Positions 33,784 through 50,144 of a stretch of DNA of 53,773 nucleotides are shown in pieces. The translations under genes were made by a program, and so were the position numbers. This stretch comes from Thermosynechococcaceae cyanobacterium MS004 (GTDB lineage: Bacteria; Cyanobacteriota; Cyanobacteriia; Thermosynechococcales; Thermosynechococcaceae), in NCBI GenBank assembly GCA_022402525.1, contig JAKRSB010000005.1:1-53773 (forward strand), written 5' to 3'. Numbering within the stretch: the stretch's first letter is position 1; each line of letters starts with the position of its first letter. Under the pieces are notes generated by a model. That model saw only the letters and a list, made by a program, of their open reading frames with translations. It made no database searches and had not been told where the DNA came from.

Positions 33784-35511
33784 TTGAAACCGCGATCGCA
33801 TTACTGGCTTTTGATTCCCTATCTACGCCCTTACACAGCAACCCTCTGCATTGCAATACTTTGCACCCTAGGGTTTGTGCTAACCATGCCGTTGATTGCG
33901 GCGCTGGTGGGTCAAATTGCGACCGATATCGGCAACGGCAACCGGGCAGCGCTCCTGCGGCTCCCCCTGACTGCGGTCATTCTATTTTTAGTGCGGGGTG
34001 GCTTTCAGTTTGGCCAGGATGTACTTATGGCCAAGGTTGCGCTAGCGATCGCCTACGATCTGCGGCGGCGAGTTTACCTTCGGCTTCAGTCGCTCAACAT
34101 TGACTACTTCGAGACGGCCCAGACGGGGGACTTGGTGTACCGCCTCACCGAAGAAATTGATCGCATCGGCGAAGTCGTTCACAAACTCTTCCACCAGTTT
34201 TTGCCCTGCACCCTTCAGCTCATCGTCATTCTGCTGTACATGATCTATCTCAACTGGCAGTTGACCCTTGCCACCCTGCTGATTGCACCCGTCATTGCGC
34301 TGCTGATCGGCTGGTTTGGAGAGCGTCTGCTGCGGTTTTCCCACAACAGTCAGGCGCAAATTTCAGACCTGTCCACCTTACTTACAGAAGTGTTTAGCGG
34401 GATTCGTCTGGTCAAAGCCTTTGCCGCAGAAGATTACGAAATTGAGCGGTTTTTGCACTCCGCCGAGAAAAACCAGCGGGCTAAGTTCGCCACAGAGCGC
34501 ATTAAGGCCATTCAATACCCCGTCCTAGGGTTTTTAGAAGCCATGGGCATTGTGCTGCTCTTTATGGTGGGCGGCTGGCAAATTTCGCGGGGGAACCTCA
34601 CGGGTGGCCAGTTTATTAGCTTTATTGCCGCTGTGGCCCTCATTATTGACCCGATTAATCTGATTACTCAAAACTATAACGAGTTTAAGCAGGGCGAAGC
34701 TTCCGTAGATCGTATCTTTGAGCTACTGCACCTGCGGCCCACTATCGTAGACCGCCCCAACGCGATCGCCCTGCCCTTGGTGCGCGGCACTGTCGAATAT
34801 CGGGCGGTATCCTTTGCCTATCCATCCGGGCGCGCCATTCTCAAAGCCCTCAACCTCACGGTCAACGCAGGGGAGGTCATTGCCCTGGTTGGCTCCTCAG
34901 GAGCAGGCAAGACCACATTGGTCAATCTTCTGCCCCGATTTTACGAACCCCAGTCCGGGGAAATTTTGATTGATGGGGTTGAAATTTCTGGCGTCACCCT
35001 CAAAAGCCTGCGCCAGCAAATCGGCATCGTCCCGCAAGATACGATTTTGTTTTCTGGCACCATTGCCCAAAATATTGCCTTTGGCCAAAAAGACTATTCC
35101 CTTTCTGCCATTGAAGCTGCGGCTAAAGTTGCCAATGCCCATCAATTTATTTCTCAATTTCCCCTGGGCTACCATACCGTCCTCGGAGAGCGCGGCGTCA
35201 ACTTATCGGGCGGGCAGCGTCAGCGCATTGCGATCGCCCGTGCCGTTCTGCTAGACCCGCGCATTTTGATCCTAGATGAAGCCACCAGCGCCCTGGATTC
35301 TGAATCGGAGGCCTTAGTCCAAGAAGCCCTAGAGCGCCTCATGCGGGGGCGCACCGTTTTTGTGATTGCCCATCGGCTGGCGACGGTGCGCGGCGCAAAC
35401 CGTATTTTGGTCTTAGAAAAAGGTCAGGTGGTTGAGGCCGGAACCCACGAGCAGCTCATGACCCAAGGCGATCGTTATGCGCGCTTTTACGCCCAGCAGT
35501 TTCCTGCCTAA
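33784..35511 (+). CDS. ABC exporter, fused TMD-NBD
   Basis: A 575-residue half exporter. Six membrane helices in about 15-300, then Walker A GSSGAGKTT (370-378), PQDTILF Q-loop, LSGGQ (474-478), Walker B ILILDEAT and AHRLATV. All catalytic residues are present. Most like the MsbA/HlyB-type exporters that cyanobacteria use for lipids, glycolipids or peptides; substrate unknown. The likely start is TTG 33784 (no ATG or GTG in frame before the fold); an ATG at 33776 is out of frame. It stands alone. Confidence 0.9.
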   Translation: MKPRSHYWLLIPYLRPYTATLCIAILCTLGFVLTMPLIAALVGQIATDIGNGNRAALLRLPLTAVILFLVRGGFQFGQDVLMAKVALAIAYDLRRRVYLRLQSLNIDYFETAQTGDLVYRLTEEIDRIGEVVHKLFHQFLPCTLQLIVILLYMIYLNWQLTLATLLIAPVIALLIGWFGERLLRFSHNSQAQISDLSTLLTEVFSGIRLVKAFAAEDYEIERFLHSAEKNQRAKFATERIKAIQYPVLGFLEAMGIVLLFMVGGWQISRGNLTGGQFISFIAAVALIIDPINLITQNYNEFKQGEASVDRIFELLHLRPTIVDRPNAIALPLVRGTVEYRAVSFAYPSGRAILKALNLTVNAGEVIALVGSSGAGKTTLVNLLPRFYEPQSGEILIDGVEISGVTLKSLRQQIGIVPQDTILFSGTIAQNIAFGQKDYSLSAIEAAAKVANAHQFISQFPLGYHTVLGERGVNLSGGQRQRIAIARAVLLDPRILILDEATSALDSESEALVQEALERLMRGRTVFVIAHRLATVRGANRILVLEKGQVVEAGTHEQLMTQGDRYARFYAQQFPA

Positions 35512-35855
35512 CGCTTGCTCTGCCTAAGTTCCGCCAGCCACGTCTCAATTCATGCCTCAATTCATGTCTCAAAGTGATATCGACAAGAAATAATCGTGAG
35601 AGAGTTGTTCTTTGCGGTATAGCCGAATCAATGGGTATCGCTAAAAGTCCCATGGGTGGAGTGTAATGTCAGGGGTTTCATTGATCAACGCAAGAGCAAT
35701 CAACGCTAGAGTAATCAACTCCAGAGCAAATGGATAAAGTTGAGCTAAATGACCCTGGCATACTCAGCTACACCCGCAAAGGGTAAGCATACTGTTTTAG
35801 AGCCTGCACATTTGGGTTGCAGCCTGAGATTGGCAACGATTTTGAGGCTTATAAC
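35512..35855. repeat. Spacer with two tandem arrays
   Basis: tctcaattcatg/cctcaattcatg/tctcaa (12-bp unit, 35543-35572) and atcaacgcaagagca/atcaacgctagagta/atcaactccagagca (15-bp unit, 35684-35728). Otherwise no gene is seen. Confidence 0.88.
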
Positions 35856-37160
35856 TTACCCGAAAACCTCCCTACAGAATCCGCCAGAACCAGCTTCATT
35901 GAAAGCCTTGGCTGCACTCATCGGCTGCACCTTCTGCTTTGTTGCAATGCAGTCCGCTAAATAAATCGCATCCCGCGCAATCCCCGAAAACCGTCCAGAA
36001 CCCCAGGTATAGAGCCAGGGCAACCCTAAAAAGTAAAGTCCTCGCACCCCTGTAACGCCACGCTTATGGCCGGGGTATCCCTTGCCATCAAAAACCGGAA
36101 TTTCAATCCAGCTAAAATCGGACTGATACCCTGTACACCAAATGACCGCGCCAATATCGGCGGCATTATAATCTAAAGTCAAGTCATCAGTGTCAGGTTC
36201 CCACACGGGCTGATAGAGCGGGTCAATGGGTGCTTCAATGTGGTGCTTTTCGATAAATTCATCAATGCTTTTTTTGATGCTTTCAGCGACGGTATCCGCA
36301 TTATCTAAATTTTGCTTCAGATCCTCGCAAAACTGAAGCGTGCTGCCATTGAGACTCTGTAACCTGCCGTAAAGCTTCATGCCTTCTAGCGCAAACTGTC
36401 GCAGGTCAATCTCTCGGCCTCCATCCCGTCCAGTTACATAGTGATTTGCATTGGTTCTCACCTTGTCTTTTTGAGGATGTTCATCAATCGAAAGATTGTA
36501 GTACCCCATCTGGTCTAGCCAATCCACCACGTCCTTGCCGCGATACCGACGGGGCGATCGCGGTGCTCCTCCCACGCACAAATGTACCTGCTTGCCAGCA
36601 AGATGTAAATCTTCGGCAATTTGACAGCCAGACTGTCCAGTGCCCACCACCAAGACAGCTTTGTCGGGTAAAGACTGTGGGTTTTTATACTCTGAGGAAT
36701 GGATCTGCACAATCGACTCAGGAAATCGTTGAGCGATTTTTGGCAATTTGGGAATATGGTAGCCACCCACCGCAACCACCACCTGATCTGCCGTATATTC
36801 CCCCAAAGTGGTTGAAACCTCAAAAGTACCCGCATTACTCGTTTTACGAAGGCTCGATACGCTCACTCCTTCTTGCACAGGCGCACCAAAAGAAGCCGCA
36901 TAGTCCTCAACGTACTGAACAATGGCATCTTTTTGCATAAACCCATGCGGGTCATTGCCGGGATAGGGATAGCCCGGTAACCGACATTGCCAATTCGGCG
37001 TCACCAAACAAAAGGAATCCCAACGTTTTGAGCGCCAGGAATGCGCAATTTCATTTTTCTCGAAAATAATGTGGTCTAGGCCTCTTTCCTTTAGGCAATA
37101 GCTGACGGATAGTCCCGCTTGTCCACCGCCCACAACAATGACGGAATAATGCGTTTTCAT
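35856..37160 (-). CDS. MSMEG_0569-family flavin oxidoreductase (Nit1C)
   Basis: A 434-residue FAD/NAD(P)H oxidoreductase of the MSMEG_0569 family, a marker of the Nit1C cluster. Two dinucleotide-binding motifs: FAD at VIVVGGGQAGLSVSYCLKERGL (about 6-27) and NADPH at VLVVGTGQSGCQIAEDL (about 170). WCTGYQSDFSWIE and LYFLGLPWLYTWGSGRFSGIARDAIYLA are family hallmarks. It probably oxygenates or oxidises a product of the nitrilase pathway; substrate unknown. It has its own NtcA promoter. Confidence 0.9.
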   Translation of the reverse strand: MKTHYSVIVVGGGQAGLSVSYCLKERGLDHIIFEKNEIAHSWRSKRWDSFCLVTPNWQCRLPGYPYPGNDPHGFMQKDAIVQYVEDYAASFGAPVQEGVSVSSLRKTSNAGTFEVSTTLGEYTADQVVVAVGGYHIPKLPKIAQRFPESIVQIHSSEYKNPQSLPDKAVLVVGTGQSGCQIAEDLHLAGKQVHLCVGGAPRSPRRYRGKDVVDWLDQMGYYNLSIDEHPQKDKVRTNANHYVTGRDGGREIDLRQFALEGMKLYGRLQSLNGSTLQFCEDLKQNLDNADTVAESIKKSIDEFIEKHHIEAPIDPLYQPVWEPDTDDLTLDYNAADIGAVIWCTGYQSDFSWIEIPVFDGKGYPGHKRGVTGVRGLYFLGLPWLYTWGSGRFSGIARDAIYLADCIATKQKVQPMSAAKAFNEAGSGGFCREVFG

Positions 37161-37198
37161 TGCTTATCTTCCCTAAAGTGATTCAGCCTGTGATGCCT

Positions 37199-37241
37199 AC
37201 GGTAGGGGGAAGCTCTAGGGGCATTTTGTAGTGTCTACTAC
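37199..37241 (-). promoter_or_regulatory. NtcA-activated promoter of the flavin oxidoreductase
   Basis: On the minus strand gtagtagacactac (37241-37228) is a full GTA-N8-TAC NtcA box; after exactly 23 bp comes taccgt (37204-37199), matching TAN3T. The start codon follows 38 bp later. This is the class-II NtcA layout, with the same spacing as at 45897. Confidence 0.82.
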
Positions 37242-37373
37242 GGAATAATGAAGTCTAATGATATGGCTAGCAAGGGTTTAGCAGATGCCTCTAAGGCACC
37301 CAATTGAGGCTTCAATAAGAGGTTTCTTGCTATCTAAATTAATAGGTATCGTGACAACAAGCATCACCGTAGG

Positions 37374-38513
37374 CTATTCAATCCATCCATTTACCATCAC
37401 TTTGTAGAGTGCCTGAAACCGAGTTTGAGCCTTGAGTTTTTTGACCGCATTATTAATATGAAATTTAACGGTACTTTCACTGATAATGAGATGGGTCGCA
37501 ATGTCGCGATCGCGCAATCCCTGAGCCAATAGCCTCAAAATCTCTTGCTCTCTCTCAGATAAGGGTGAGTTCTGCTGGCTTGAAGTCACTTGGTAGGGAA
37601 CCGTAAGCAGAATCTGAATGACCTTTTGATGAATATCCGTTTGGTACGCTAATGTGCCCCCTAAACAGGTCACAGTTGGCTTAAGCTGCCTAAATGAACC
37701 AGACAACGCGTCTTGAAGGTCTGACTGTGATCGTCCAGAGGGAGAAATCAGGGCTTCTAGCGCTACCGTATCTTCACGGTACATCAGGCGAAAAGAAATG
37801 CAGTCCATCGGTTTAAGCACATCCGCCAATTGCAGCATGATATTGTGCACCGAGAGAGGCAGCACTTGTTCAGTTCCAATCAAGGTGATGCGTACCGAGT
37901 CGAGTAGACAGGCCAACTGATCCGACAGCACAAGCTTATGAAACACTGGGGTTGCAGTCGAGGATTGCCAGTTTTGCTGCGCTTGCTGATACTTGAACGC
38001 CATTTCAAGGGCTACGGCAATGGTTGTACATAACGATTGCAGCACTTCTAAAAATTCTGCCACCATTGGCCGTTGACTAAAGGCTGCCAAAACTCCCACC
38101 ACACGATCACCAACGGTCAACGGATACCCGGCAAACCCCTGAATTTTGTTGGCGATCGCCCAGTCCCGATCTTTGACCCAAGGTTCTTCCACTAGGTTAT
38201 TGCTCAAAAATGAAATCCGATTTTGCGCAATTTTTCCAACCTTATAAGATCCCATCGCAACCCGCGCAAACTCGCCATTGGTGCGAGTTGATAAGCCAGA
38301 GGAGGCCACTAGACGAAGAAATTTGGCATCTGCTTCTACCAACCAAATGCGTGCAAAAACGCAGTCAAAGTTCTCAATCAATCCATTGGTAATGCAGTTG
38401 GCGATCTCCTCTGGCTCAAAACAGCCGCTCAGTTTCTGTGCGAGCCGATTGATGCGTTGAAGATAGAAAATGAGCTGTGATCCATCTATTAATTGTGGCG
38501 AGGTGTTAGACAC
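37374..38513 (-). CDS. GAF-domain LuxR-type regulator
   Basis: A 379-residue transcription factor. GAF domain about 30-175 (FDCVFARIWLVE, GFAGYPLTVGDRVVGVLAAFS), a middle part without clear domain that could be a second GAF-like sensor, and a C-terminal LuxR HTH about 318-375 (LSEREQEILRLLAQGLRDRDIATHLIISESTVKFHI). The gene is embedded in the Nit1C block, same strand, between the MSMEG_0570 gene and the flavin oxidoreductase. Synechocystis also has a regulator next to sll0783. It may sense a cluster metabolite; no receiver domain, so it is probably not a two-component partner. Confidence 0.85.
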   Translation of the reverse strand: MSNTSPQLIDGSQLIFYLQRINRLAQKLSGCFEPEEIANCITNGLIENFDCVFARIWLVEADAKFLRLVASSGLSTRTNGEFARVAMGSYKVGKIAQNRISFLSNNLVEEPWVKDRDWAIANKIQGFAGYPLTVGDRVVGVLAAFSQRPMVAEFLEVLQSLCTTIAVALEMAFKYQQAQQNWQSSTATPVFHKLVLSDQLACLLDSVRITLIGTEQVLPLSVHNIMLQLADVLKPMDCISFRLMYREDTVALEALISPSGRSQSDLQDALSGSFRQLKPTVTCLGGTLAYQTDIHQKVIQILLTVPYQVTSSQQNSPLSEREQEILRLLAQGLRDRDIATHLIISESTVKFHINNAVKKLKAQTRFQALYKVMVNGWIE

Positions 38514-38641
38514 GAATTGACTCTCAAGGCAGGCTCATAACCTTTCTCATAGTCCAGTTGACTCTCTAGAAACTGTGTTGTTGACTACCAGACCATGAGG
38601 CCAAATCTTTTCAGATGCACACTTTTCAGGCGCTCAGCGGA

Positions 38642-38929
38642 TTACTCAATAAATCGGATGACTTTCACAGTGCGCGGTAATTGTTCTTCGTACTGTGCCG
38701 CAGTCGCTTCGATTTCCTGGAGTTGACCCAGCGCTAACCCGCAAGGGAATCCATATTTTGCCTTCACGCGATCACTGGCAATGGTCAACGCCGCCTGCGA
38801 TCGCGCGACAAAATCCGATAGGTCATAGCTTTGGTCAGGGGTGAAGTATTCTTTGATGATTAAAGACGGAGAGTAGCAGATCGCCTGAGACCCATCAGGC
38901 CACTCGATTTGAAACCGCATTTCTGGCAT
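38642..38929 (-). CDS. MSMEG_0570-family nitrogen starvation protein
   Basis: A 95-residue soluble protein of the MSMEG_0570 family, found only with Nit1C clusters. MRFQIEWPDGSQAICYSPSLIIKEYF, YDLSDFVARSQAALTIASDRVKAKYGFPCGLALGQL are the family pattern. Biochemical role unknown. Cotranscribed with the glycosyltransferase upstream (59 bp, spacer filled by a 14-bp tandem repeat). Confidence 0.9.
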   Translation of the reverse strand: MPEMRFQIEWPDGSQAICYSPSLIIKEYFTPDQSYDLSDFVARSQAALTIASDRVKAKYGFPCGLALGQLQEIEATAAQYEEQLPRTVKVIRFIE

Positions 38930-38942
38930 TGGAAACTCCTGT

Positions 38943-38984
38943 AGATTGAGTCCTATAGATTGAATCCTATAGGTTGAATTTATT
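38943..38984. repeat. 14-bp tandem repeat, 3 copies
   Basis: agattgagtcctat / agattgaatcctat / aggttgaatttatt between the glycosyltransferase stop and the MSMEG_0570 start. Confidence 0.9.
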
Positions 38985-38988
38985 TAAT

Positions 38989-40167
38989 TTAGACCACATG
39001 AACTTCTGAAACGGAGTGCCGTTGCAAAAGCTGTTTATAGCGTTGGATATGCAGGCAAGCAGAGGCTTCCCAAGTGTATTGAGTCAAAACGGTTTGACTC
39101 TTTTGCTTCAGCGGCTCAGATAGGTTCGGCTGCACGCTTGCAATCATGGCCTGAGCGATCGCATCTACGTCACAGGGGTTCACCAATAGCGCCTGATCTG
39201 CGGCTAAAAACTCGGTGAACGGCGGCTGATTAGACGTGATAACGGGGAGATTGGAGGCGATCGCCTCTAGCACCACCAGTCCCCAACCTTCTTTAAGGGA
39301 CGGAAACACAAAGGCATCGGCACAGCGATACAGCACGGGCAGTTCCTCCGCAGAGACTACGCCAGAAATGATTAGCGATTGACCCAAAGAGATATTCAAT
39401 TTTTGAACCGCATCAAAAAATAGCTCTCGGTAGGGCGAAACGTCAAAGAATGTATCGCCCCCAGCAATGACGAGCTGTGCATCGGGGAAGTATTTTAGGA
39501 CTTGGGCAAACGCTTCTACTATTGCAATGGAATTTTTACGAGGCTCAATGCCGCCTACTGTTAAGTAAATGGGATGTCCCTTTAAGCCAAGCTGCTGTTT
39601 GAGTGCCGCAGTCGCCTCTGGGTTAGGAAGAAAACGCTGCACATCTACCCCATTGGTGACGCGAGCCGTTTTGACTTGATAGTGCTGTTCTACCTGAGTT
39701 TGCCAATACTCGCTGACGCACAAACACAAATCTGGTAGCCGAATGGATCGATCTTGGCACTCCTGAAGGTAAGGGTGGTTGAAGTCATCAATGTGGTGAA
39801 TGGTGCGGAGATAGTGGGGGATGACTTGGCGATCGCGCAGGATAGCCAGCGCATTGGCGCTAATGCAGTCTTGGGCATGGTAGTAATCAAACCCCTCAGA
39901 GGATTGCTCAAAGTAATCCACAAACTCTTGAATTCGCTGCTTTACCAAGGCTTCAACATCATCGGCAGCAGGAAATGACGGAATTAGACGAGACTCGCAC
40001 TGAAGAGGGCGGCAAAATTCAGCACCAGCTTTTGCCAACGCAAAAATACAGACCTGATGGCCCAAAGCCTGAAGCGCTTCAGCAAGATATATCGTATGCA
40101 TCACCCCGCCGCGAGGCTTGGTGGAATAGAGCAGAAAAGCAATGCGAAGGGTATTTTTTTGAGTCAT
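38989..40167 (-). CDS. MSMEG_0565-family glycosyltransferase (GT4)
   Basis: A 392-residue GT4 glycosyltransferase of the MSMEG_0565 family, part of Nit1C. Starts RIAFLLYSTKPRGGVMHTIYLAEAL (acceptor-binding Gly loop), has GGIEPRKNSIAIVEAF and the EX7E-like EGWGLVVLEAIASNLPVI near residue 290. Donor and acceptor unknown. Upstream it now faces the divergent + strand insert, so its original link to the AIR-synthase gene in the operon is cut; no NtcA box is visible in its 169-bp upstream spacer. Confidence 0.9.
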   Translation of the reverse strand: MTQKNTLRIAFLLYSTKPRGGVMHTIYLAEALQALGHQVCIFALAKAGAEFCRPLQCESRLIPSFPAADDVEALVKQRIQEFVDYFEQSSEGFDYYHAQDCISANALAILRDRQVIPHYLRTIHHIDDFNHPYLQECQDRSIRLPDLCLCVSEYWQTQVEQHYQVKTARVTNGVDVQRFLPNPEATAALKQQLGLKGHPIYLTVGGIEPRKNSIAIVEAFAQVLKYFPDAQLVIAGGDTFFDVSPYRELFFDAVQKLNISLGQSLIISGVVSAEELPVLYRCADAFVFPSLKEGWGLVVLEAIASNLPVITSNQPPFTEFLAADQALLVNPCDVDAIAQAMIASVQPNLSEPLKQKSQTVLTQYTWEASACLHIQRYKQLLQRHSVSEVHVV

Positions 40168-40336
40168 AAAGATGTTGATCTATTTACGCTGTCTGTCAAA
40201 AGGCAGTTTATTGGAAAGACATCCTCGATGATCGGAACTGTTTAGATTATGGGCATCCTATCTTAATCGTTTTGCTGCTTGGCACAAGCGATTTAACCAA
40301 AGAACACATGTCCATAAAAGCACTGGAGCGGTTGAC

Positions 40337-40798
40337 ATGGATTTACAGCATTTAAAGTGGACTAAAAACGTAAAAAGGAAGGATGATGATTGGGCTTACA
40401 AAGAGTTCAAGGTCTTCGATCTCTTTAAATTGGCCTGGAAAAATGACGAGAAAAATGCTGATAAACCTGCCAAAAATGACTTAATTCTGCTTAGACAGAA
40501 AGGATACGTCACTCATTTAGTCAAAGTTTTAGATTACAAGTCTGAACATGAGGATGAAAAGCATGACTATGATGTCTACCGAATTGTTGAAGTACTTTGG
40601 ATTATCAATTTTAGTTGCCCACCTACATTAGCAAAGGCAGATGTGTTGTTTAATTATCCAGAGGTTCTCAAATATCAAAGCGGACACATAATGGAATTAG
40701 AGAGCTTGCCCACATTCAAAAAAAGTTGGGAAGAGAAGAGTGGATTAAAAGGTTTCCAAGTTCACATTGAAGAGTTGTTGGCGTTGAGCAATGTCTGA
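40337..40798 (+). CDS. Unknown protein in AT-rich insert
   Basis: A 153-residue soluble protein, acidic and Lys-rich, with no family I recognise with certainty. The core DLILLRQKGYVTHLVKVLDYKSEHEDEKHDYDVYRIVEVLWI resembles the beta-barrel of EVE/PUA-like nucleic-acid or ligand binders, but that is only an impression. Base composition is visibly AT-richer than the Nit1C genes, and it lies on the opposite strand between them, next to a toxin-antitoxin pair; recent arrival by transfer is likely. Confidence 0.6.
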   Translation: MDLQHLKWTKNVKRKDDDWAYKEFKVFDLFKLAWKNDEKNADKPAKNDLILLRQKGYVTHLVKVLDYKSEHEDEKHDYDVYRIVEVLWIINFSCPPTLAKADVLFNYPEVLKYQSGHIMELESLPTFKKSWEEKSGLKGFQVHIEELLALSNV

Positions 40799-40848
40799 AG
40801 CTTTGATCTCTACTCCTGCTATCCTAGAAGTAGGAATAGGAGAGATCT

Positions 40849-41046
40849 ATGACTGTTTTAGTGCAAGAGTTTTTGAAGACTTTTGACCGCTTGACGAACT
40901 CCGAACGACTAGATTTAGCGTCAGAGATCTTGAGGCGGACAGTACATTTAGATTTTCCACCTTTGCCTGATCAAGATTTAGCTTTGAATGCCGAGGCAGT
41001 TTTTCTAGCGTTGGACGAGCAAGAAGCTGTCAATGAATGCTCCTAA
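40849..41046 (+). CDS. PemK/MazF-associated antitoxin
   Basis: A 65-residue protein. LVQEFLKTFDRLTNSERLDLASEILRRT then PPLPDQDLALNAEAVFLALDEQEA is the short antitoxin type paired with PemK toxins in cyanobacteria. The toxin frame starts inside its last codons (ATG 41033), a typical TA overlap. A ggagagat precedes ATG 40849. Since the toxin is frameshifted, it may be an orphan antitoxin. Confidence 0.78.
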   Translation: MTVLVQEFLKTFDRLTNSERLDLASEILRRTVHLDFPPLPDQDLALNAEAVFLALDEQEAVNECS

Positions 41047-41364
41047 TCGTGGGGAAGTTTGGTTGGTAGACCTAAGGCGTATGTCGCGAAGGTTAGACCA
41101 TGCTTAGTCATCAGCATCCCTACCTTAAGCCAAGATCGTGCGTTAGCGACTCTAATTCCGCACACAACTAGTCCGCGTGATTCAAGGTTTGAAGTCAATA
41201 TCAAAGTTAAGTTCCTTCGAGAAGGGGCTTTCGATGTACAAAACATTATTACAATCTCTCATGCAAAGCTTTTACGGAAATTGGGAAGTTTAACCCCAGA
41301 GCAAATCGGGAAATTAGAGCAAGTGCTGGACTTTTGGTTGGGATTGGGAAACGCCGACGAGTAA
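41033..41364 (+). pseudogene. Frameshifted PemK/MazF toxin
   Basis: ATG 41033 starts MNAPNRGEVWLVDL, the exact PemK start, but a net -1 indel around 41072-41080 shifts the frame, and translation stops at TAG near residue 25. The other frame continues the toxin perfectly: VAKVRPCLVISIPTLSQDR, ATLIPHTTSPRDSRFEV, FLREGAFDVQNIITISHAKL to 41364. Catalytic Arg and Thr/Ser regions are in the second part, without a proper start. So the ribonuclease is inactive unless ribosomes slip or the base is an assembly error. Confidence 0.83.
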
Positions 41365-41401
41365 ATTACATATTTTTTACAACGGTTCACCTCTATCCCG
41401 A

Positions 41402-42346
41402 TCAACTGGACGAAAATCCCGTTAGTGGCTGCTGCGCAAAGTCCCAAAATGTAGCGGTTTCAGACTCAGATTTTAAGAGCAGTTGTGGCTTGGCCTGGAT
41501 GGTTCCGACTGCCTCGCAAACTAACTCGCGCTGATGAAAATAGGACTGAATTTTCTCGACATAGCTGGGACGGACGCTCAAAAGAAAGCCATAGCTAGGG
41601 AAACAGACCAGCCACTTCTCTAGCAATAATTCTTCTGGACAAGGAATCTGATCGAGGTTCAGGATTGCGCCGCAGCCGGAGGTTTCGAGGAGCATGAGTA
41701 ATGTGCCAATAATGCCGCCCATGCTGATGTCTTTACCTGTATCGCACAAGCCTAATTCTGCGATTTTGGGCAACAGTTCTAAATCGCCTTGTAGACGCTC
41801 TGGGTCGGCAGTGGTTGCAGCATTCCAGAACGGGTAGATTGGATGAGGCTGACCGCGAAAGTCGGTGACGACCAAAAGAACATCGTTAGGTTTGGCGCTA
41901 AAGCTTGTGATGAGATGGGTAGCTCTTCCCAAAATTGCGACGGACAGAGCACTGTAGGGACTATGGCAGTTTGTATGGCCTCCTACGATGGGAATGTTAT
42001 AGGCGTTCGCCGCCGCAAGCATTCCCTGCCAGATGGGTTGAGTGGCTTCGGTAGACTGGCTCCAGATGGTATCTACCAGGGCGATCGCCCGTCCACCCAT
42101 GGCGTGGATATCGCTCACGTTCACCATCACCGCACACCAGCCCGCAAACCAGGGGTCTGTCTCTAAAAACTCTGGCAAAAGTCCCTCAGCGGCGAGCAGT
42201 AAATAGCCATTTCCATCGGGAATCGCGGCGCAATCATCGCCAACTTTGATGGCGCTTGATTTAAGGTGAAGGGCCGCCGTCTGGATATCTTGCTTGGATT
42301 GAAGGCCAAGAGATGCTTTGAGCTGGGCGGCAAGGATGGATAACAT
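41402..42346 (-). CDS. Sll0787-family AIR synthase-like protein (Nit1C)
   Basis: A 314-residue protein with a PurM/AIR-synthase ATP-grasp-like fold, Sll0787 family. From ATG 42346 MLSILAAQLKASLG, IKVGDDCAAIP (ATP-binding Asp), VMVNVSDIHAMGGRAIALVDTI, VGGHTNCH, CDTGKDISMGGIIGTLLMLLETSGCG. It probably phosphorylates or activates a substrate in the nitrilase pathway. The frame is open another 36 codons upstream across the acetyltransferase stop; those residues are not conserved. The stop lies next to the frameshifted toxin, convergent. Confidence 0.88.
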   Translation of the reverse strand: MLSILAAQLKASLGLQSKQDIQTAALHLKSSAIKVGDDCAAIPDGNGYLLLAAEGLLPEFLETDPWFAGWCAVMVNVSDIHAMGGRAIALVDTIWSQSTEATQPIWQGMLAAANAYNIPIVGGHTNCHSPYSALSVAILGRATHLITSFSAKPNDVLLVVTDFRGQPHPIYPFWNAATTADPERLQGDLELLPKIAELGLCDTGKDISMGGIIGTLLMLLETSGCGAILNLDQIPCPEELLLEKWLVCFPSYGFLLSVRPSYVEKIQSYFHQRELVCEAVGTIQAKPQLLLKSESETATFWDFAQQPLTGFSSS

Positions 42347-42351
42347 GACAT

Positions 42352-42858
42352 TCAGGAGGCTTCCTGGCTTAAGAATGGAAGGGCGGGACGAGGTTCTGTG
42401 CCAGCAGGATAGTGATTGAGGTCGGCTTCCATCAGGTGATGGGTTAAGCCGCAAAGATCTAGTTCTTCTAAAGAGTTCCAGTGCAGTCGCTGGAAGAATC
42501 GCACATTTTGAAGCTGTACCGTGGCTAAAAAGCGATCGCAGCCCCAGGTGTTTGCAGTTGTGACGGCTTTATAAATTAGGCCTTTCCCCACCTGGGCAGC
42601 ACGGCGATGGTCGAGATGAACGCCTAAACGTCCGCCATACCAAAGTCTAGATTCTGATTCGTAGATGCGGACAATACCGACAACTTCAGAGGCTTGGGTG
42701 GCAATAATGGGGTAGGCGATCGCATCCAGGGCATCCTCATCACTGCCTGTAAATATCCCCTGCTCTTCCACAAAAATAGAATGGCGGAGGGCAAAATAGG
42801 CTTGAATTTCGGTGGGGGTCTTTGCCAGTTGAAACTGATAGGGGTGAGTCTTGTTCAT
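42352..42858 (-). CDS. Sll0786-family GNAT acetyltransferase (Nit1C)
   Basis: A 168-residue GNAT N-acetyltransferase of the MSMEG_0567/Sll0786 type. FALRHSIFVEEQGIFTGSDEDALDAIAYPIIA and VGIVRIYESESRLWYGGRLGVHLDHRRAAQVGKGLIYKAV (acetyl-CoA loop Q/R-x-x-G-x-G/A) are present. The ATG 42858 is chosen over a TTG six bases upstream. It overlaps or abuts both neighbours, so translational coupling in the operon is likely. Substrate unknown. Confidence 0.9.
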   Translation of the reverse strand: MNKTHPYQFQLAKTPTEIQAYFALRHSIFVEEQGIFTGSDEDALDAIAYPIIATQASEVVGIVRIYESESRLWYGGRLGVHLDHRRAAQVGKGLIYKAVTTANTWGCDRFLATVQLQNVRFFQRLHWNSLEELDLCGLTHHLMEADLNHYPAGTEPRPALPFLSQEAS

Positions 42859-42867
42859 GGTCAAAAT

Positions 42868-43956
42868 TCATCCCTCAAAGTTAGAGAGCGCAGAGCAAGC
42901 ACCGCACTTGGCGCACCCTGCTTTAATATCTTGAGAAAACATGCCTGCCTGCCGCAGCTTTTGACCAATCTGCTCATACAGCGGATACATAAACGCGCTG
43001 CTGGGCGAAGGATAATTTGCCAAAGGCGTTCCGGTGATGGGCACAAAGGGCACAACAAAGGGGTAAACGCCAAGGGCAATCAGGCGATCGCAGGCATCAA
43101 GCAATGTCTCTGCACTATCTCCCAACCCTGCAAGTAAGTAGGTACTCACCTGTCCCCATCCAAAGACGTTAACGGCAGCAGCAAAAGCTTCGTAGTAATA
43201 GTCTGTGGGTACGGTCGCCTTCCCTGGCATAATCCGCGCGCGCACCTGCGGATCGACGGCTTCGAGGTGCATCCCTAAGCTGTCTACCCCCGCAGCCTTC
43301 ATTCGCTCAAACCATACAAAATCGTCCGGAGGTTCGGACTGTGCCTGAATGGGAAGATCCACCGCCGCTTTAATAGCCTTAGCGCACTCGGTCAGGTAGG
43401 CCGCGCCGCGATCGCTGACGTTTGGCGTCCCGGTGGTCATAATCATGTGTTTCACCCCGTCTAGTCGCACGGCGGCTTCAGCGACTTCTGCAAGCTGGGC
43501 TGGGGTTTTACGGGCAATGGTTCGATCGCCTTCCAAAGATTGACCAATGGCGCAAAACTGACAGGATGTTTTAGTGTCGCCATAGCGGATGCAGGTTTGC
43601 ATCACCGTGGTTGCCAGCACATCACGGCTGTGGAGCAGCGCAATTTTCCAGTAGGGGATGCCCTCGGCGGTGTTTAGGCCATAGAACTTGGGCTGATGGG
43701 GGAAGCTGATAGGGGCGATCGCTTCTCCTTTCCACTGCAATTGACGCTGGTCTGCGTCTGCATCATAAACGACCGAATAGGGAGACTCAGCAGCAGCACT
43801 GGTGTAGATGGGCACCATCACCGTCGTGTCTCCGACCGTAATGGCCTTATGGTCGGATGGCCCTGCGCCGCCTTTTCGTCCGGCTGCGCCTAGGGTCGGG
43901 TCAAGCAGCTTAAGACCGTGGGACTGCAGATCTGTAATGAGCTGACTCTGGTTCAT
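42868..43956 (-). CDS. MSMEG_0568-family radical SAM protein (Nit1C)
   Basis: A 362-residue radical SAM enzyme. The cluster Cys are 122, 132 and 135 ([14 protein letters not shown]), a CX9CX2C spacing and not the usual CX3CX2C, as in its family. A C-terminal CAKCGAC (348, 351, 354) likely holds a second Fe-S cluster. [11 protein letters not shown] and [18 protein letters not shown] fit the TIM barrel. Start overlaps the DUF1348 gene stop by four bases (ATGA). Reaction unknown. Confidence 0.9.
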
Positions 43957-44384
43957 GGGGTAGGACGCTCCCAGCGAAACTTGCGATCTGATTCCAAGAT
44001 GGGGACGTCGTTAATGCTGGCTTCTCGACGCTGCATCAAGCCGTTGGGGGCAAATTCCCACTGTTCGTTGCCATAGGCGCGGTACCAAAAGCCAGCGTCA
44101 TCATGCCACTCGTACTCAAACCGCACAGAAATTCGGTTTTCGGTAAAGCTCCACAGCTCTTTTTTAAGGCGATAGTCGAGTTCCCTGGCCCACTTGCGCT
44201 GCAAAAAGGCACGAATGGCCTCTCTGCCGCTAAAAAATTCGGCTCGGTTTCGCCACTGGGAGTCTTCGGTATAGGCGAGGGCAACACGGTCTGGATCACG
44301 AGTATTCCAAGCATCCTCGGCGGCCTGAACCTTAGCTGTCGCTGTTTCCAGCGTGAAGGGGGGCAATGGGGGACGGCTTTCCAT
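43953..44384 (-). CDS. DUF1348 / NTF2-like protein in Nit1C operon
   Basis: A 143-residue cone-shaped NTF2/SnoaL-like protein of the DUF1348 family ([59 protein letters not shown]-like [12 protein letters not shown] region, then ASINDVPI). Such folds bind small molecules or act as isomerases or hydrolases. Not part of the standard Nit1C set. It overlaps the nitrilase end by 53 bp and the radical SAM start by 4 bp, so it is truly within the operon. ATG 44384 fits family starts better than ATG 44414. Confidence 0.85.
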
Positions 44385-45375
44385 AGTCTTGAGGTCTGAA
44401 GGTGAAAGGTTCATCGGTTGAAGATACGCCGTCTGAGAGAGATGAAGGCTGTTGGATGACGGTCTGAGTCTCTAAATTCAGGTTGAGCTGGAGCAGGTCG
44501 GGTCGGGCATAGTGGCCCACCGAATCCATCATGCGCTTGCGTTTGGTGATGAGGGAAAAATCAAGATCGGCGATCGCCATTCCTTCTCCCTCTGTAATGG
44601 GCGCACAGAGATGATTCCCCTCCGGCCCAATAATGGCGGTATTGCACCCCCCTACGAGCGCCTTTTGCAGCTTCTCGTCTGGGGTGATCTGCGCCACCTG
44701 CTCAGGGGAAAGCCATCCGGTGGCATTGATCACAAAACAGCCAGATTCCAGAGCATGGTGGCGAATGGTTACCTCAATTTGATCCGCAAAAATTTGCCCC
44801 ACGAGCGACCCCGGAAACTGGGCACAGTGGATCTGTTCATGCCCTGCCATCAGCGCATACCGTGCAAGGGGGTTGTAATGTTCCCAGCAGGCCAAGGCTC
44901 CTAATTTGCCCACGGCAGTATCCATCACCTTGAGTCCTGACCCGTCCCCCTGTCCCCAGACCATCCGCTCATGGTAGGTGGGCGTAATCTTGCGCCGCTT
45001 GAGAATCAGGGAACCATCGGCATCAAAGATGAGCTGGGTGTTATAAAGTGAGCCGTGGTCGCGCTCATTCACTCCCAAAACCACCACGATGCTGTGAGCT
45101 TTCGCGGCCTGACTGACCGCATCGGTGACAGTCCCAGGCACTTCTACCGCTTCCTCGTATAGTCGCATGTGCTCTTTGCCCATCAAAACGGGCGGCTGCA
45201 CAAAGGAAAAATACGGGTAGTAGGGCACAACCGTTTCTGGAAACACCGCTATCTGAGCGCCTTCTTTGGCAGCTGCGGCGATCGCCTCCAGCACTTTAGC
45301 CGTGGTTCCCTCACGGCTAAACAGGACAGGGCTGAGCTGAACGGCTGCGGCTCTCACCTTGCGAGAGTAATCCAT
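44332..45375 (-). CDS. Nit6803-family nitrilase (Nit1C)
   Basis: A 347-residue nitrilase that hydrolyses organic nitriles to acids and ammonia. Catalytic triad Glu47 ([14 protein letters not shown]), Lys129 ([20 protein letters not shown]) and Cys163 ([16 protein letters not shown]). YYPYFSF and [12 protein letters not shown] belong to the Nit6803 group. Nit1C nitrilases have been linked to growth on very low cyanide and to nitrogen starvation. Second gene of the NtcA-driven operon (2 bp after the Sll0783-like gene). C-terminal tail overlaps the DUF1348 gene. Confidence 0.94.
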
Positions 45376-45377
45376 GA

Positions 45378-45860
45378 TTAGAGCGTCCAGGTATCAAGGA
45401 TAAATGCGCCATCCTTACGGTGGAGCAGCACAATATCTAGAACATCTAAGGGACTGATGGGGATAATACCAGGGAGAAGCGATGGTTCACCGTGGCCGTA
45501 AAGTGCTTGTAGGGCAAAGCGACAGGCGTAAACTTTACCGCCTTCTGACATAAATTTAAGAATCTGGTCGCCAAAGTTCTGATGCCCAGGGAAGGCGGAA
45601 TCACCCAGTTTGGGAAAGCCACGCTGGATACCGAGGGTGACGCCAGGGCCATAGAGCAGAATGGAAGTTTCAAACCCTTTACGCTGCAAGCGCGTGGCCT
45701 GCAACAAGTTCACAAAACCAATAGAACCTTCAAAGGCAACGGTATGAAAGGTAACAAGGGCTTTCTCGCCTGGGTCGGCTTGAACATCGGGGAATACTTT
45801 TTCTTCATAATCAACGAAGAAATCGCCTGTTTGGTGGGCGGGCTTTGTTACTTCAGGCAT
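45378..45860 (-). CDS. Sll0783/MSMEG_0572-family starvation protein
   Basis: A 160-residue soluble protein of the Sll0783 family, first gene of Nit1[67 protein letters not shown] and [24 protein letters not shown] are the hallmarks; DsrE-like fold is likely. In Synechocystis loss of sll0783 impairs PHB formation in nitrogen starvation. ATG 45860 follows an NtcA promoter. Confidence 0.93.
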
Positions 45861-45896
45861 CGTCTATTTCTCTTTTGCAACAACGGGTATGGCGCA

Positions 45897-45939
45897 AGCG
45901 TAAAGCGATGCTCTAAGTGATTTTTGTATCTGCAACTAC
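45897..45939 (-). promoter_or_regulatory. NtcA-activated promoter of the Nit1C operon
   Basis: Minus strand gtagttgcagatac (45939-45926) is GTA-N8-TAC; 23 bp later tacgct (45902-45897) fits TAN3T. The Sll0783-like start is 36 bp further, which leaves a leader of about 30 nt. Confidence 0.85.
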
Positions 45940-46316
45940 GAAAGACAAAAGCCTAACAGTAAGGACAGGAAAGGCGATCGCCGTCCCCAACTTTGCCTGA
46001 ATCATCCCGACTAACCTAGTGATTTAGATAGGTGTTGTTGCATCGATAGAAACAGAGACAGAAATCCCCCTTTGTTGAGTCCCTATACCAGCGCTCAACA
46101 AAGGTAAAGCCCATCTCAAGCTCAAGAAAAACATGCGGAAAAAGAGGCAAGCAATCGCAAAAAACGCGCAGACCTGATGTTAGGTTTGCACGAGTACATC
46201 CAGTCACAAGGACGGATACAGGCTGAAGCCGCTCAGTATTTTAGTGAGACACAATTCTGGTGAGAAACAATTCTGGTGAGAAACAATTCTTGCGAGAAAC
46301 AGCCTCGAACCAGTAG
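45940..46316. other. Spacer with hairpin and tandem repeat
   Basis: No supported gene. cctttgttgag (46069) / ctcaacaaagg (46094) is a perfect 11-bp inverted repeat with a 14-nt loop. A 16-bp tandem array gtgagaaacaattctg, almost four copies, lies at 46244-46304 just after the pstS stop. Confidence 0.6.
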
Positions 46317-47390
46317 CTAGAACTCAGCCTGCTTACGAAGCAGCTGACCAATGGTCAGGTCAGGCTGAGGTTCTCCACCAAAGACCGTGCCTACCTTGCC
46401 CCTTTGAAAATGTAGAAAGGAAAGGCGATAGCCTTCTGCTGGCAGGGGAATATACCCGACGGATTGAACACTCTTCTGATCGTTGGTCAGGTAAAAATCG
46501 ATAAAAGCACGCAACTCAGGCTTATCCTGAGCAGCCTTGGAGTTCACGTAAATAAACAAGGGTCTTGACAGAGGTCGGTATTCAGACTTCTCAACGGTCT
46601 GACGAGAGGGGACAACCGCACCATTCCCGCTGTCTACACCGAGGGCTTTTAGCTTGGTCTGGTTCGCTTCGTAATAGGCCAACCCAAAATAACCTAGGGC
46701 TTGTGGGTCATTACTGACCCCTGCGACGAGAATGTCGTCGTCTTCACTGGCAGTATAGTCAGAGCGGCTAGCGCCATCTTTGCCCGTAATCACTTCGGTA
46801 AAGTAGTCGTAGCTGCCAGAATCAGCGCCGGGGCCATAGAGCTTAATGGGCTTGGCAGGCCAAGATGACCGAACCTGCTGCCAGGTTTTGATTTTGCCCT
46901 GGGCGGCAGGCTCCCAGAGGCGCTTGAGTTCTTCTGTGGTGATGTCATTTGCCCAATCATTTTTGGGGTTGACCACAACAGTCAGAGCATCAAAGGCAAC
47001 CGGAATCTCAATATAGGCCACGCCTCCCTGCCGACAAGCCTCCATTTCAGCTTTGGTGATGGGGCGGGAGGCACCGCTTACTTGAGTTTCTCCGGCGCAG
47101 AATTTTTCGAACCCACCGCCAGTCCCCGAAAATTTGCTGTCAATTTGAATTTGCTGATTGTGAGCCCTAAATTCTTTGACCACGGCCTCAGTAATCGGGA
47201 AAACGGTACTAGACCCGTCAATTTGGATGCTGCCCGCCAAGGAAGCCTTCGGCAGTATGGGGGCAAGCTGTACTGGAATCTGAGCAGAGTCAGCAACCTT
47301 TTGCGCGCCACCACAGGCGGTGAGCAACAGCATGACGGTAAACAAAACGATGGGGTAAGGGTTCCGGCGTATAGAATTGACTAAAAACAT
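46317..47390 (-). CDS. pstS: PstS-like phosphate-binding lipoprotein
   Basis: A 357-residue periplasmic phosphate-binding protein anchored by a lipobox (LLTAC, Cys26). GSSTVFPITEAVVKEF, SGTGGGFEKFCAGETQVSGASRPI, GPGADSGSYDYFTEVITG and the C-terminal FIYVNSKAA fit the PstS/SphX type. It is 9 bp after arsH and without pstCAB, so it is probably cotranscribed with arsH; it may discriminate phosphate from arsenate, which is inference. A 16-bp tandem repeat follows. Confidence 0.88.
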   Translation of the reverse strand: MFLVNSIRRNPYPIVLFTVMLLLTACGGAQKVADSAQIPVQLAPILPKASLAGSIQIDGSSTVFPITEAVVKEFRAHNQQIQIDSKFSGTGGGFEKFCAGETQVSGASRPITKAEMEACRQGGVAYIEIPVAFDALTVVVNPKNDWANDITTEELKRLWEPAAQGKIKTWQQVRSSWPAKPIKLYGPGADSGSYDYFTEVITGKDGASRSDYTASEDDDILVAGVSNDPQALGYFGLAYYEANQTKLKALGVDSGNGAVVPSRQTVEKSEYRPLSRPLFIYVNSKAAQDKPELRAFIDFYLTNDQKSVQSVGYIPLPAEGYRLSFLHFQRGKVGTVFGGEPQPDLTIGQLLRKQAEF

Positions 47391-47399
47391 AGGTATTTC

Positions 47400-48035
47400 T
47401 CACAGTTTTGATAGGTGATGGGCATTGACCACCAGAGCCTTGCGTTCACTGTGGCGATCTGTTAAGTAGTCCACCTGATCTCGAAGCAAAAGGGTGAACT
47501 TGTACAGTTCCTCCATTACGTCGACTACGCGATCGCGGTAGGCAGAATCTTTCATCGCGCCGTCCTCGTTAAACTCCTGGTAGGCCTTCGCCACCGAAGA
47601 CTGATTTGGAATTGTAAACATCCGCATCCAGCGCCCCAAAATCCGCAGTGTATTCACCGCATTAAAAGACTGCGACCCACCACTGACCTGCATCACCGCA
47701 AGAGTGCGGCCTTGGGTGGGTCGCACAGCGCCAATGTTCAGGGGAATCCAATCAATCTGATTTTTCAAAACCCCTGAAACCTGTCCGTGGAGTTCTGGGC
47801 TAGACCAAACCTGCCCCTCTGACCACAGACTCAACTCCCGCAATTCCTGCACCTTGGGGTGGGTTTCCGGCACACTGCCATAAATGGGCAATTCACGCGG
47901 ATCAAAAAATCGCGCCTCTGCCCCAAACCCCTCCAGGATGCGGGCCGCTTCTTCCGCTAGCAGGCGGCTGTAGGAGCGATCGCGCAAAGAGCCATACAGA
48001 AACAAAATTCGAGGCGGATGGTCAAAGCTGCCCAT
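47400..48035 (-). CDS. arsH: NADPH-dependent FMN reductase ArsH
   Basis: A 211-residue ArsH flavoprotein. [20 protein letters not shown] (FMN phosphate loop, about 15-34), [47 protein letters not shown] and [27 protein letters not shown] are typical. ArsH oxidises trivalent organoarsenicals and reduces quinones; in cyanobacteria it often sits in the ars operon. The upstream spacer has inverted repeats like an ArsR/SmtB operator. Confidence 0.93.
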
Positions 48036-48073
48036 AGGAAAGAAGCGATACGTTCAACACATTGACACTCATA

Positions 48074-48127
48074 TATATTGAGAGTCATCAATATACTGAA
48101 GCTTATATCGAACGCTGTCAATATAAG
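48074..48127 (-). promoter_or_regulatory. Inverted repeats upstream of arsH
   Basis: tatattga-gagtca-tcaatata (48074-48095) is a perfect 8-bp inverted repeat with the TTGA-N6-TCAA core of ArsR/SmtB-type sites. A second pair cttatat (48102) / ataTAAG-type atataag (48121) has a 12-nt gap. Both lie 39-92 bp before arsH in an AT-rich spacer. Confidence 0.6.
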
Positions 48128-48204
48128 GGTATTGCGCAACACATCGCCCTATTGACCCAAGCCCGCTAGAATGCTGGGCTTTATATGACCGCAAACCGCT
48201 GTAC

Positions 48205-48420
48205 ATGAGTTCGCTTTGCCTAGATCAGGACTCAGACAGCTTGCTCATGATGTCCCTCGTCTATTTTTCGTTTTCAAATAAATCAGCCCTGCGACCCAGA
48301 CGGCGCACTGAGCAGCAAGTTCAGCACTGGAAAGAGATCTTGCTGAATGCGTTAGATCTCTCCCTTGATGAAGATGAGGGCTTCCCATTAGTCAAAGCAG
48401 CCCCATCCGCTAGGGCGTAA
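48205..48420 (+). CDS. Small hypothetical protein
   Basis: A 71-residue protein without a known family. The part RRRTEQQVQHWKEILLNALDLSLDEDEGF is helical and looks real. No clear ribosome site is seen at ATG 48205 or the alternative ATG 48247 (MSLVYFSF...). It is divergent from arsH. Could be a small regulator or nothing; low confidence. Confidence 0.4.
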   Translation: MSSLCLDQDSDSLLMMSLVYFSFSNKSALRPRRRTEQQVQHWKEILLNALDLSLDEDEGFPLVKAAPSARA

Positions 48421-48479
48421 GAGAGCGCCACCGACACCATACAGGATGGACTTTGGCTATTAGCAATAGGCAATCGTTA

Positions 48480-50144
48480 TTAGGCGATCGCGCCCGCCTT
48501 GACCTTAGCACTCAGCTTGACCTGGAACTCCGCTTCAAAACAGGCTTTTTTGTATTCAAAACTCCAGAGTTCAAGGTCACAGTCATCCCCTGCTTGAGCT
48601 GGTGTGAGATGGATGATGAGTTCGCGGGGTTCTGGGCGAAACTCGCAGTCAATGGCCTGGATAGCGCTGATTTGGCGGCGATCTAGGGCAACGGCAACCT
48701 TGAGAATGGCGCTGAGTTGATCCACTACCTGTCGTGATTCCTTGCTGAGGACTTGGTAGGCTTCATGCTTTTTCTTGGGTGCACCCTTGCGGTGATAGCG
48801 CGCCAAGTTGGCAATCATTTCAATTTCAGCATCGGTATAGCCCAGTAGCCCACCGTTGCGGATCAGGTAGTAAGAATGCTTGTGATGGGCAGAGTGGCTA
48901 ATGTAGTGGCCGCAGTTATGCAAAATGGCCGAAGCCCACAGCAGCTCTCGCTCCCCTGCTCCCCACCGGTGGAGGGTGCTATGGGTTTGGTCAAAAATAT
49001 TGACGGAAAATTGAGCAATTTGCTGGGCGTTTTCGAGGTTGACTCGATACTTTTGCGCCAGATTCAGGACGCTTCGCTGGCGGACGGAGCCCTGGTATCG
49101 TAGACGATCTTCAATGAGGCCGTGGTTAAGCATCCAGTCCACAATGATGCCTTCCCGCAGAGCACGGGGACAGGCGTGAATCTGCTTCATGCCGAGGCTT
49201 TCCATCACTTCTTGCAAAATGATGGCCCCTGACAAAATAATTTCGGCGCGGCGCTCAGACATGCCGGGCATTTTACAGCGATCGCTAAAGGGCAGCTTGC
49301 GTAGGCGTTGGGTTAGGAGCTGAAGCCGCTCTAGGGTGAGTCCGTAGCCGTGGAGTGAGGCTGGGGCAACTCCCTGAGTTTCGCTGGCATCTAGGCGAAT
49401 CAGACTTTCAATGGTGCCGGAGGTGCCCAAAATCCGCACGGCTTCGCCCGATTGGATATGGCCTTTAAGATCTTCCAGCGGCCATTCCAACATGCCGCGT
49501 ACGTAGGCTTTAAGGCGATCATATTCGCGGTTGCTGATGGGGTCTGTGGCAATAAATTCATTGGACAGCCGCACCGCGCCGACTTTAGTGCTGCTCAGAA
49601 AGCGGGGGTCGTGGCCGTCCCCCAGAATAAGCTCTGTAGAGCCGCCGCCAATGTCCACAATGACGTGGGGCTGGTTATGGAGTTCAAGACCAGAGAGGAC
49701 GCCCAAATAGATCCGGCGGGCTTCTTCCTGTCCGGCAATGAGGTCAATTTGGAGGCCGAGCTGAGCCTCAACGTCCCGGATAAATTCTCTGCCGTTGGGC
49801 GCTTCCCGCGTGGCGCTAGTGGCAACGGCAATAATTTGCTCAGCATTCCAGGCTCTTGCCATGTCCAGGCAGCGACGGAGAGCCGCGATCGCCCTTGCCA
49901 TGGCTTCTACCGTGAGGTTTCCGGTCTGCGGACAGCGCTCACCCAGCCGTACCGTGCTTTTTTCTGCATCTACGATGTTAAAGGCTGGCAACGAGGAGTT
50001 GATTTTAACCACTACCATGTGGATGGAGTTGGTGCCAATATCGATCGCCGCCAAAATTCGGCTATTGGGGTCTGAGGGAATGGGTGCTTTGGACAAGAGG
50101 CTAACGGCGGGCAATGGCGGATTGAGCATCGCGTCTGTAGTCAT
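48480..50144 (-). CDS. ppx: Exopolyphosphatase/GppA-family phosphatase
   Basis: A 554-residue Ppx/GppA enzyme that releases phosphate from polyphosphate or converts pppGpp. ASKHA fold: AAIDIGTNSIHMVVVKIN (phosphate loop), GQEEARRIYLGVLSG, VDIGGGSTELILG, GTSGTIESL; then an HD-like C-terminal domain (LHNCGHYISHSAHHKHSYYLIRNGGLLGYTDAEIEMIANLARYHRKG). Length as in cyanobacterial Ppx. With pstS nearby a phosphate theme is visible, though no operon is shared. Confidence 0.93.
   Translation of the reverse strand: MTTDAMLNPPLPAVSLLSKAPIPSDPNSRILAAIDIGTNSIHMVVVKINSSLPAFNIVDAEKSTVRLGERCPQTGNLTVEAMARAIAALRRCLDMARAWNAEQIIAVATSATREAPNGREFIRDVEAQLGLQIDLIAGQEEARRIYLGVLSGLELHNQPHVIVDIGGGSTELILGDGHDPRFLSSTKVGAVRLSNEFIATDPISNREYDRLKAYVRGMLEWPLEDLKGHIQSGEAVRILGTSGTIESLIRLDASETQGVAPASLHGYGLTLERLQLLTQRLRKLPFSDRCKMPGMSERRAEIILSGAIILQEVMESLGMKQIHACPRALREGIIVDWMLNHGLIEDRLRYQGSVRQRSVLNLAQKYRVNLENAQQIAQFSVNIFDQTHSTLHRWGAGERELLWASAILHNCGHYISHSAHHKHSYYLIRNGGLLGYTDAEIEMIANLARYHRKGAPKKKHEAYQVLSKESRQVVDQLSAILKVAVALDRRQISAIQAIDCEFRPEPRELIIHLTPAQAGDDCDLELWSFEYKKACFEAEFQVKLSAKVKAGAIA

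Follow-up and report, generated by a model that had tools for sequence, protein, structure and literature searches.

What could keep the genes for nitrile and cyanide use under one nitrogen signal once their cluster has been broken in two? The question is raised by the Nit1C genes of the window, the whole stretch of 53,773 nucleotides analysed here, in front of which the earlier note had placed a promoter for the nitrogen regulator NtcA. We put at roughly 0.86 the probability that two class II NtcA-activated promoters, at 45939-45897 and 37241-37199, hold this split cluster in one regulon, a reading drawn from sequence comparison. The second of them, in front of the MSMEG_0569 gene, is absent from the earlier note and was found in this analysis. 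The assignment of the first to NtcA is supported by the conserved box, -10 element and spacing and by the full-length NtcA of the genome, with binding and the nitrogen response as predictions; a LuxR-type regulator that accompanies the cluster had been overlooked.

A split Nit1C cluster

The genes concerned are all encoded on the minus strand:

45378-45860, minus: MSMEG_0572/Sll0783 family nitrogen starvation response protein, encoded at the head of the operon (TIGR04044, 286.5 bits)
44332-45375, minus: Nit6803 family nitrilase (TIGR04048, 580 bits)
43953-44414, minus: DUF1348/SnoaL-like protein, the 'ntf2' gene of Nit1C clusters (PF07080)
42868-43956, minus: MSMEG_0568 family radical SAM protein (TIGR04043, 590.7 bits)
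42352-42864, minus: MSMEG_0567/Sll0786 family N-acetyltransferase (GNAT; TIGR04045)
41402-42454, minus: Sll0787 family AIR synthase-like protein, end of the tight run (TIGR04049, 460 bits)
38989-40167, minus: MSMEG_0565 family glycosyltransferase (TIGR04047, 479 bits)
38642-38929, minus: MSMEG_0570 family nitrogen starvation response protein (TIGR04042)
37374-38513, minus: GAF-LuxR regulator (GAF_2 and GerE domains), listed here for its co-occurrence with Nit1C in the counts given below
35856-37160, minus: MSMEG_0569 family flavin-dependent oxidoreductase, nitH of Nit1C (TIGR04046, 678 bits)

The identification of the operon as Nit1C, made earlier from the letters, is borne out by curated models for most genes: the nitrilase, MSMEG_0572, radical SAM, GNAT and AIR synthase-like genes all exceed the curated cut-offs, and 'ntf2' is recognised through PF07080, its orthologs in three other contigs (L025, L042 and L057) likewise coming after the nitrilase gene. 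The six genes from MSMEG_0572 through the nitrilase, DUF1348, radical SAM and GNAT genes to the AIR synthase-like gene form one run, and the true start of the last of them probably lies near 42346, the TIGR04049 match beginning at residue 40. After the AIR synthase-like gene the cluster is interrupted, at 40337-41364, by a plus-strand hypothetical ORF and a plus-strand PemK/MazF-like toxin ORF. On their far side, separate from the first run, come the genes for the glycosyltransferase, MSMEG_0570, LuxR and the flavoprotein, the last of them about 4.2 kb past the AIR synthase-like gene. In many relatives the MSMEG_0572 gene is directly preceded by the flavoprotein gene in the same orientation, and sometimes the LuxR gene comes ahead of that. 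In the window the LuxR-flavoprotein pair occupies the opposite end of the cluster, and both promoters are retained.

Two predicted promoters of the same build

The elements in front of the two transcription units are as follows:

45926-45939, minus: NtcA-type box GTAGTTGCAGATAC, that is GTA-GTTGCAGA-TAC, supported by the sequence, by conservation in orthologs and by the best matrix score of the window
45897-45902, minus: -10 element TACGCT (TA-CGC-T, of the form TAN3T), supported by the sequence and by a spacing enriched in relatives
37228-37241, minus: second NtcA-type box GTAGTAGACACTAC, GTAN8TAC with no mismatch, conserved in orthologs
37199-37204, minus: -10 element TACCGT, separated by 23 nt from the second box

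The pattern described earlier, GTA-N8-TAC followed by 23 bp and TAN3T, is present exactly as claimed and belongs to the minus strand: the box at 45939-45926 has no mismatch, and 23 nt separate it from the -10 element. Its position before the operon also stands, the distance of 37 bp given for it being 36 nt when measured between the -10 element and the ATG at 45860. The TACGCT element is weaker than TAATCT, the commonest form among relatives. In class II NtcA promoters the box is centred at about -41.5 and accompanied by a TAN3T -10 element, one example having 22 nt between the two (PMC3898017), and counting 41.5 nt from the box centre we predict that transcription of the main operon starts near 45891. 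The second promoter repeats the build of the first, 23-nt spacer included, with its -10 element 38 nt before the ATG of the flavoprotein gene at 37160. At the second site, a genome of the same genus (G002) retains the GTA, TAC and TAN3T elements, with two bases inside the box and some of the spacer changed.

How would such a pair of promoters operate? Under nitrogen shortage, NtcA loaded with 2-oxoglutarate would occupy GTAN8TAC, centred some 41.5 nt upstream of the start, and contact the RNA polymerase recognising the TAN3T element, with the result that genes for the use of nitriles or cyanide as nitrogen would be switched on. The promoter at 45939-45897 would drive the run of six genes from MSMEG_0572 to the AIR synthase-like gene, and that at 37241-37199 the MSMEG_0569 flavoprotein gene; with a separate box for either transcription unit, the split cluster would remain a single regulon. 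From the NtcA literature we infer that NtcA binds and activates here, that 2-oxoglutarate is the signal, and where transcription starts.

Upstream of the first gene the gap measures 456 nt, and a tandem array of 3.6 copies of GTGAGAAACAATTCTG occupies 46244-46301, between pstS and the Nit1C promoter. Another tandem array, 14-bp, is found at 38937-38979. A search of Rfam over 34000-48500 gave no match.

Conservation across cyanobacteria

Upstream regions of orthologs were taken from named genomes and from a class-wide sample, which includes closely related and hence not fully independent genomes, and the search before the first gene covered 300 nt. We observe the exact GTAN8TAC-N22/23-TAN3T arrangement upstream of the first gene in 61 of 96 cyanobacterial orthologs, and in 13 more with one mismatch in the box. 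The controls, run over the same 96 regions, single out each component of the pattern: a gap of 8 nt between the triplets occurs in 67 regions and gaps of 3-7 or 9-14 nt in 2-9; a spacing of 22 or 23 nt to TAN3T is seen 62 times and any other spacing 0-3 times; the antisense strand yields 3/96; and GTA is found 61 times against 3 for the next-best palindromic triplet.

Once duplicates were removed and both ortholog sources joined, the first-gene promoter was present in 65/112 cyanobacteria and in none of 42 non-cyanobacteria, and the exact promoter of the flavoprotein gene in 48/71 and 0/33, respectively. It was found in none of the 186 cyanobacterial upstream regions of the nitrilase, radical SAM, GNAT, AIR, glycosyltransferase and MSMEG_0570 genes, and the window has no exact box match before its glycosyltransferase, MSMEG_0570 or LuxR genes. 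In some genomes a boxless first gene directly follows, in the same orientation, a flavoprotein gene whose start is available; all of these except one (L027) have an exact or one-mismatch box ahead of the flavoprotein gene. This distribution fits, as far as comparison of sequences can indicate, one regulon with one or two entry points.

In one family of the sample (f2), probably the picocyanobacteria, no recognisable NtcA box was found upstream of the first genes (L205, L208-L212 and L217), whose flavoprotein gene is divergent. Across most of the sampled cyanobacteria outside this family, the sequences identify the box and -10 element at 22-23 nt as a conserved feature of the first gene. A matrix built from the sites of 60 other genomes, with this genome left out, ranks the main site first in the window at 25.7 bits, followed by a site at 14.3 and by the second promoter at 14.0; as the matrix was made from exact matches, which favours the GTA, TAC and TAN3T columns by construction, it is the inner positions that set the main site above the other exact ones.

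An exact NtcA-type promoter also accompanies the Nit1C cluster of a contig labelled Tatlockia (L042, a Legionellales MAG). This contig had been the single non-cyanobacterial match in an earlier count; its genes look cyanobacterial, so it is counted among the cyanobacteria in the deduplicated set, and it is probably a misbinned cyanobacterial contig.

NtcA and its other putative sites

The genome encodes a full-length NtcA (on L089; 375 bits against a cut-off of 244.95), whose best match in the PDB is the NtcA of 8h3v, with 222 residues aligned and the STRVTVTRLLG stretch of the DNA-binding domain unchanged. Upstream of both ntcA and amt of this genome lies a GTAN8TAC ending in GATAC like the main Nit1C box, with no canonical -10 element at 21-24 nt. 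In other genomes known targets provide a comparison of modest weight, the exact box being present in only part of the ntcA and amt promoters; for ntcA it occurs in 17 of 31 genomes, usually without a canonical -10 element, which makes these promoters a weak yardstick for NtcA. The inner GA before TAC is found in 38/61 Nit1C boxes, 6/17 amt boxes and 5/17 ntcA boxes, the expectation being 1 in 16, or about one each at amt and ntcA. Searched with the GlnA model, the genome yields a single protein, GlnN/GSIII-like and 723 aa long (L253, 865-3036), which scores below the cut-off; no GlnA above it was found.

Relation to known systems

This kind of control is already known, and the example here is well supported as an ordinary one. 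The canonical class II NtcA promoters of cyanobacterial glnA, nirA and urtA share GTAN8TAC and about 22 nt to TAN3T; the present case differs in its target, a nitrile/cyanide cluster, and in its TACGCT -10 element. The sll0783-sll0787-ssl1464 operon of Synechocystis PCC 6803 has gene families in common with the cluster of the window, and it is repressed by ammonium (PMC10094980), sll0783 being raised under nitrogen starvation (PMC3901256). Unlike that operon, the cluster of the window is split, and its flavoprotein gene has an NtcA-type promoter of its own. The MSMEG_0572 cluster of Mycobacterium smegmatis shares the gene family and is likewise placed under the global nitrogen regulator of its host, with the OmpR-type GlnR in place of NtcA (PMC3662644). 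The Nit1C genes (nitHBCDEFG) of Pseudomonas and picocyanobacteria belong to the same families as those of the window, yet none of 42 non-cyanobacterial and seven family f2 upstream regions has a GTAN8TAC promoter at the first gene. What the comparison contributes is controlled sequence evidence that would tie nitrile or cyanide use to the global nitrogen switch in many cyanobacterial genera, together with a case suggesting that a rearranged cluster can retain its regulation through a box on each of two units.

Which protein reads the box?

Could the GAF-LuxR protein, in place of NtcA or together with it, be the reader of GTAN8TAC at the Nit1C genes, making the operon responsive to a signal of the pathway such as cyanide? 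NarL/LuxR-type proteins often recognise GTA and TAC half sites. An ortholog of the regulator occurs in 124 of 150 genomes with Nit1C and in 14 of 238 without it in the class sample, several of the 14 being incomplete assemblies, and its gene adjoins the flavoprotein gene in the window and in several relatives. Ten Nit1C genomes, seven of them from family f2, have neither the first-gene box nor the LuxR ortholog, and NtcA was found in all five of these ten that were tested. One genome (G058) points the same way: its amt and ntcA are boxed and its Nit1C first gene is not, a one-mismatch box stands before its divergent flavoprotein gene, and LuxR is absent. Against this, the motif with its 22-23 nt spacing is the published class II design of NtcA (PMC3898017), and the inner GA is enriched at the amt and ntcA boxes as well. 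Six genomes retain the exact box with no LuxR detected, several of them incomplete and one (G274) with a LuxR gene perhaps truncated where its contig stops. In family f2, genomes missing the Nit1C box mostly miss it at amt too, an argument weakened by G058. On balance we regard a LuxR reading of the box as improbable.

We met no link between the GAF-LuxR protein and Nit1C in the literature searched, and it is a candidate for a dedicated Nit1C regulator, for which a second, pathway-specific role is more likely than that of reader of the box. Control of Nit1C might then be arranged in two layers, with NtcA boxes before the transcription units and the GAF-LuxR protein sensing a compound of the pathway at or next to the same promoters; we offer this tentatively and consider it rather doubtful. 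For a pathway with an unsettled natural substrate, the protein offers a candidate second regulator that can be put to the test.

It is also conceivable, and quite unlikely, that NtcA binds the main site to repress or modulate, most transcription coming from another promoter, for example by read-through out of pstS or from a sigma-70 promoter farther upstream. The 456-nt gap would leave room for one, and a weak promoter-like match, within chance, lies at 46266-46238. However, sites at which NtcA represses lie downstream of the -35 box (PMC3898017), and the position of the main box relative to its -10 element is that of an activator.

Chance expectation

That the main site is a functionless chance match is barely credible. 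In favour of this view, the window holds no more bare boxes than shuffles do, and many genome-wide extended matches fall inside genes. It is rejected on the controls for gap, spacing, strand, alternative triplets, internal genes and taxon: the site is conserved, with its spacing fixed, at the corresponding position in dozens of genera, and a second copy stands before another Nit1C gene.

Bare GTAN8TAC occurs 5 times in the window, as against 3.5 per 53.8 kb in dinucleotide shuffles, and the count is not significant. The shuffled rate of about one per 15 kb is rarer than the one per 4 kb that had been assumed. Extended by TAN3T at a spacer of 20-26 nt, the pattern has 78 matches in the 4.93-Mb genome, and by hand count the spacer measures 22 or 23 nt in 30 of these. 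Many of the 78 are intragenic and few first genes could be named, and the set was not used as proof in the form of a list of NtcA targets. Three fall in the window, at 45897-45939, 37199-37241 and 12037-12080, the last inside a sugar-kinase-like gene and probably a chance match. At the genome density of matches with spacer 22 or 23, the expectation for the 150 nt upstream of any given gene is below 0.001, and two Nit1C genes of the window have the pattern. The earlier note argued that the -10 element and the position before the operon make the box credible; the comparative evidence puts the site far beyond chance.
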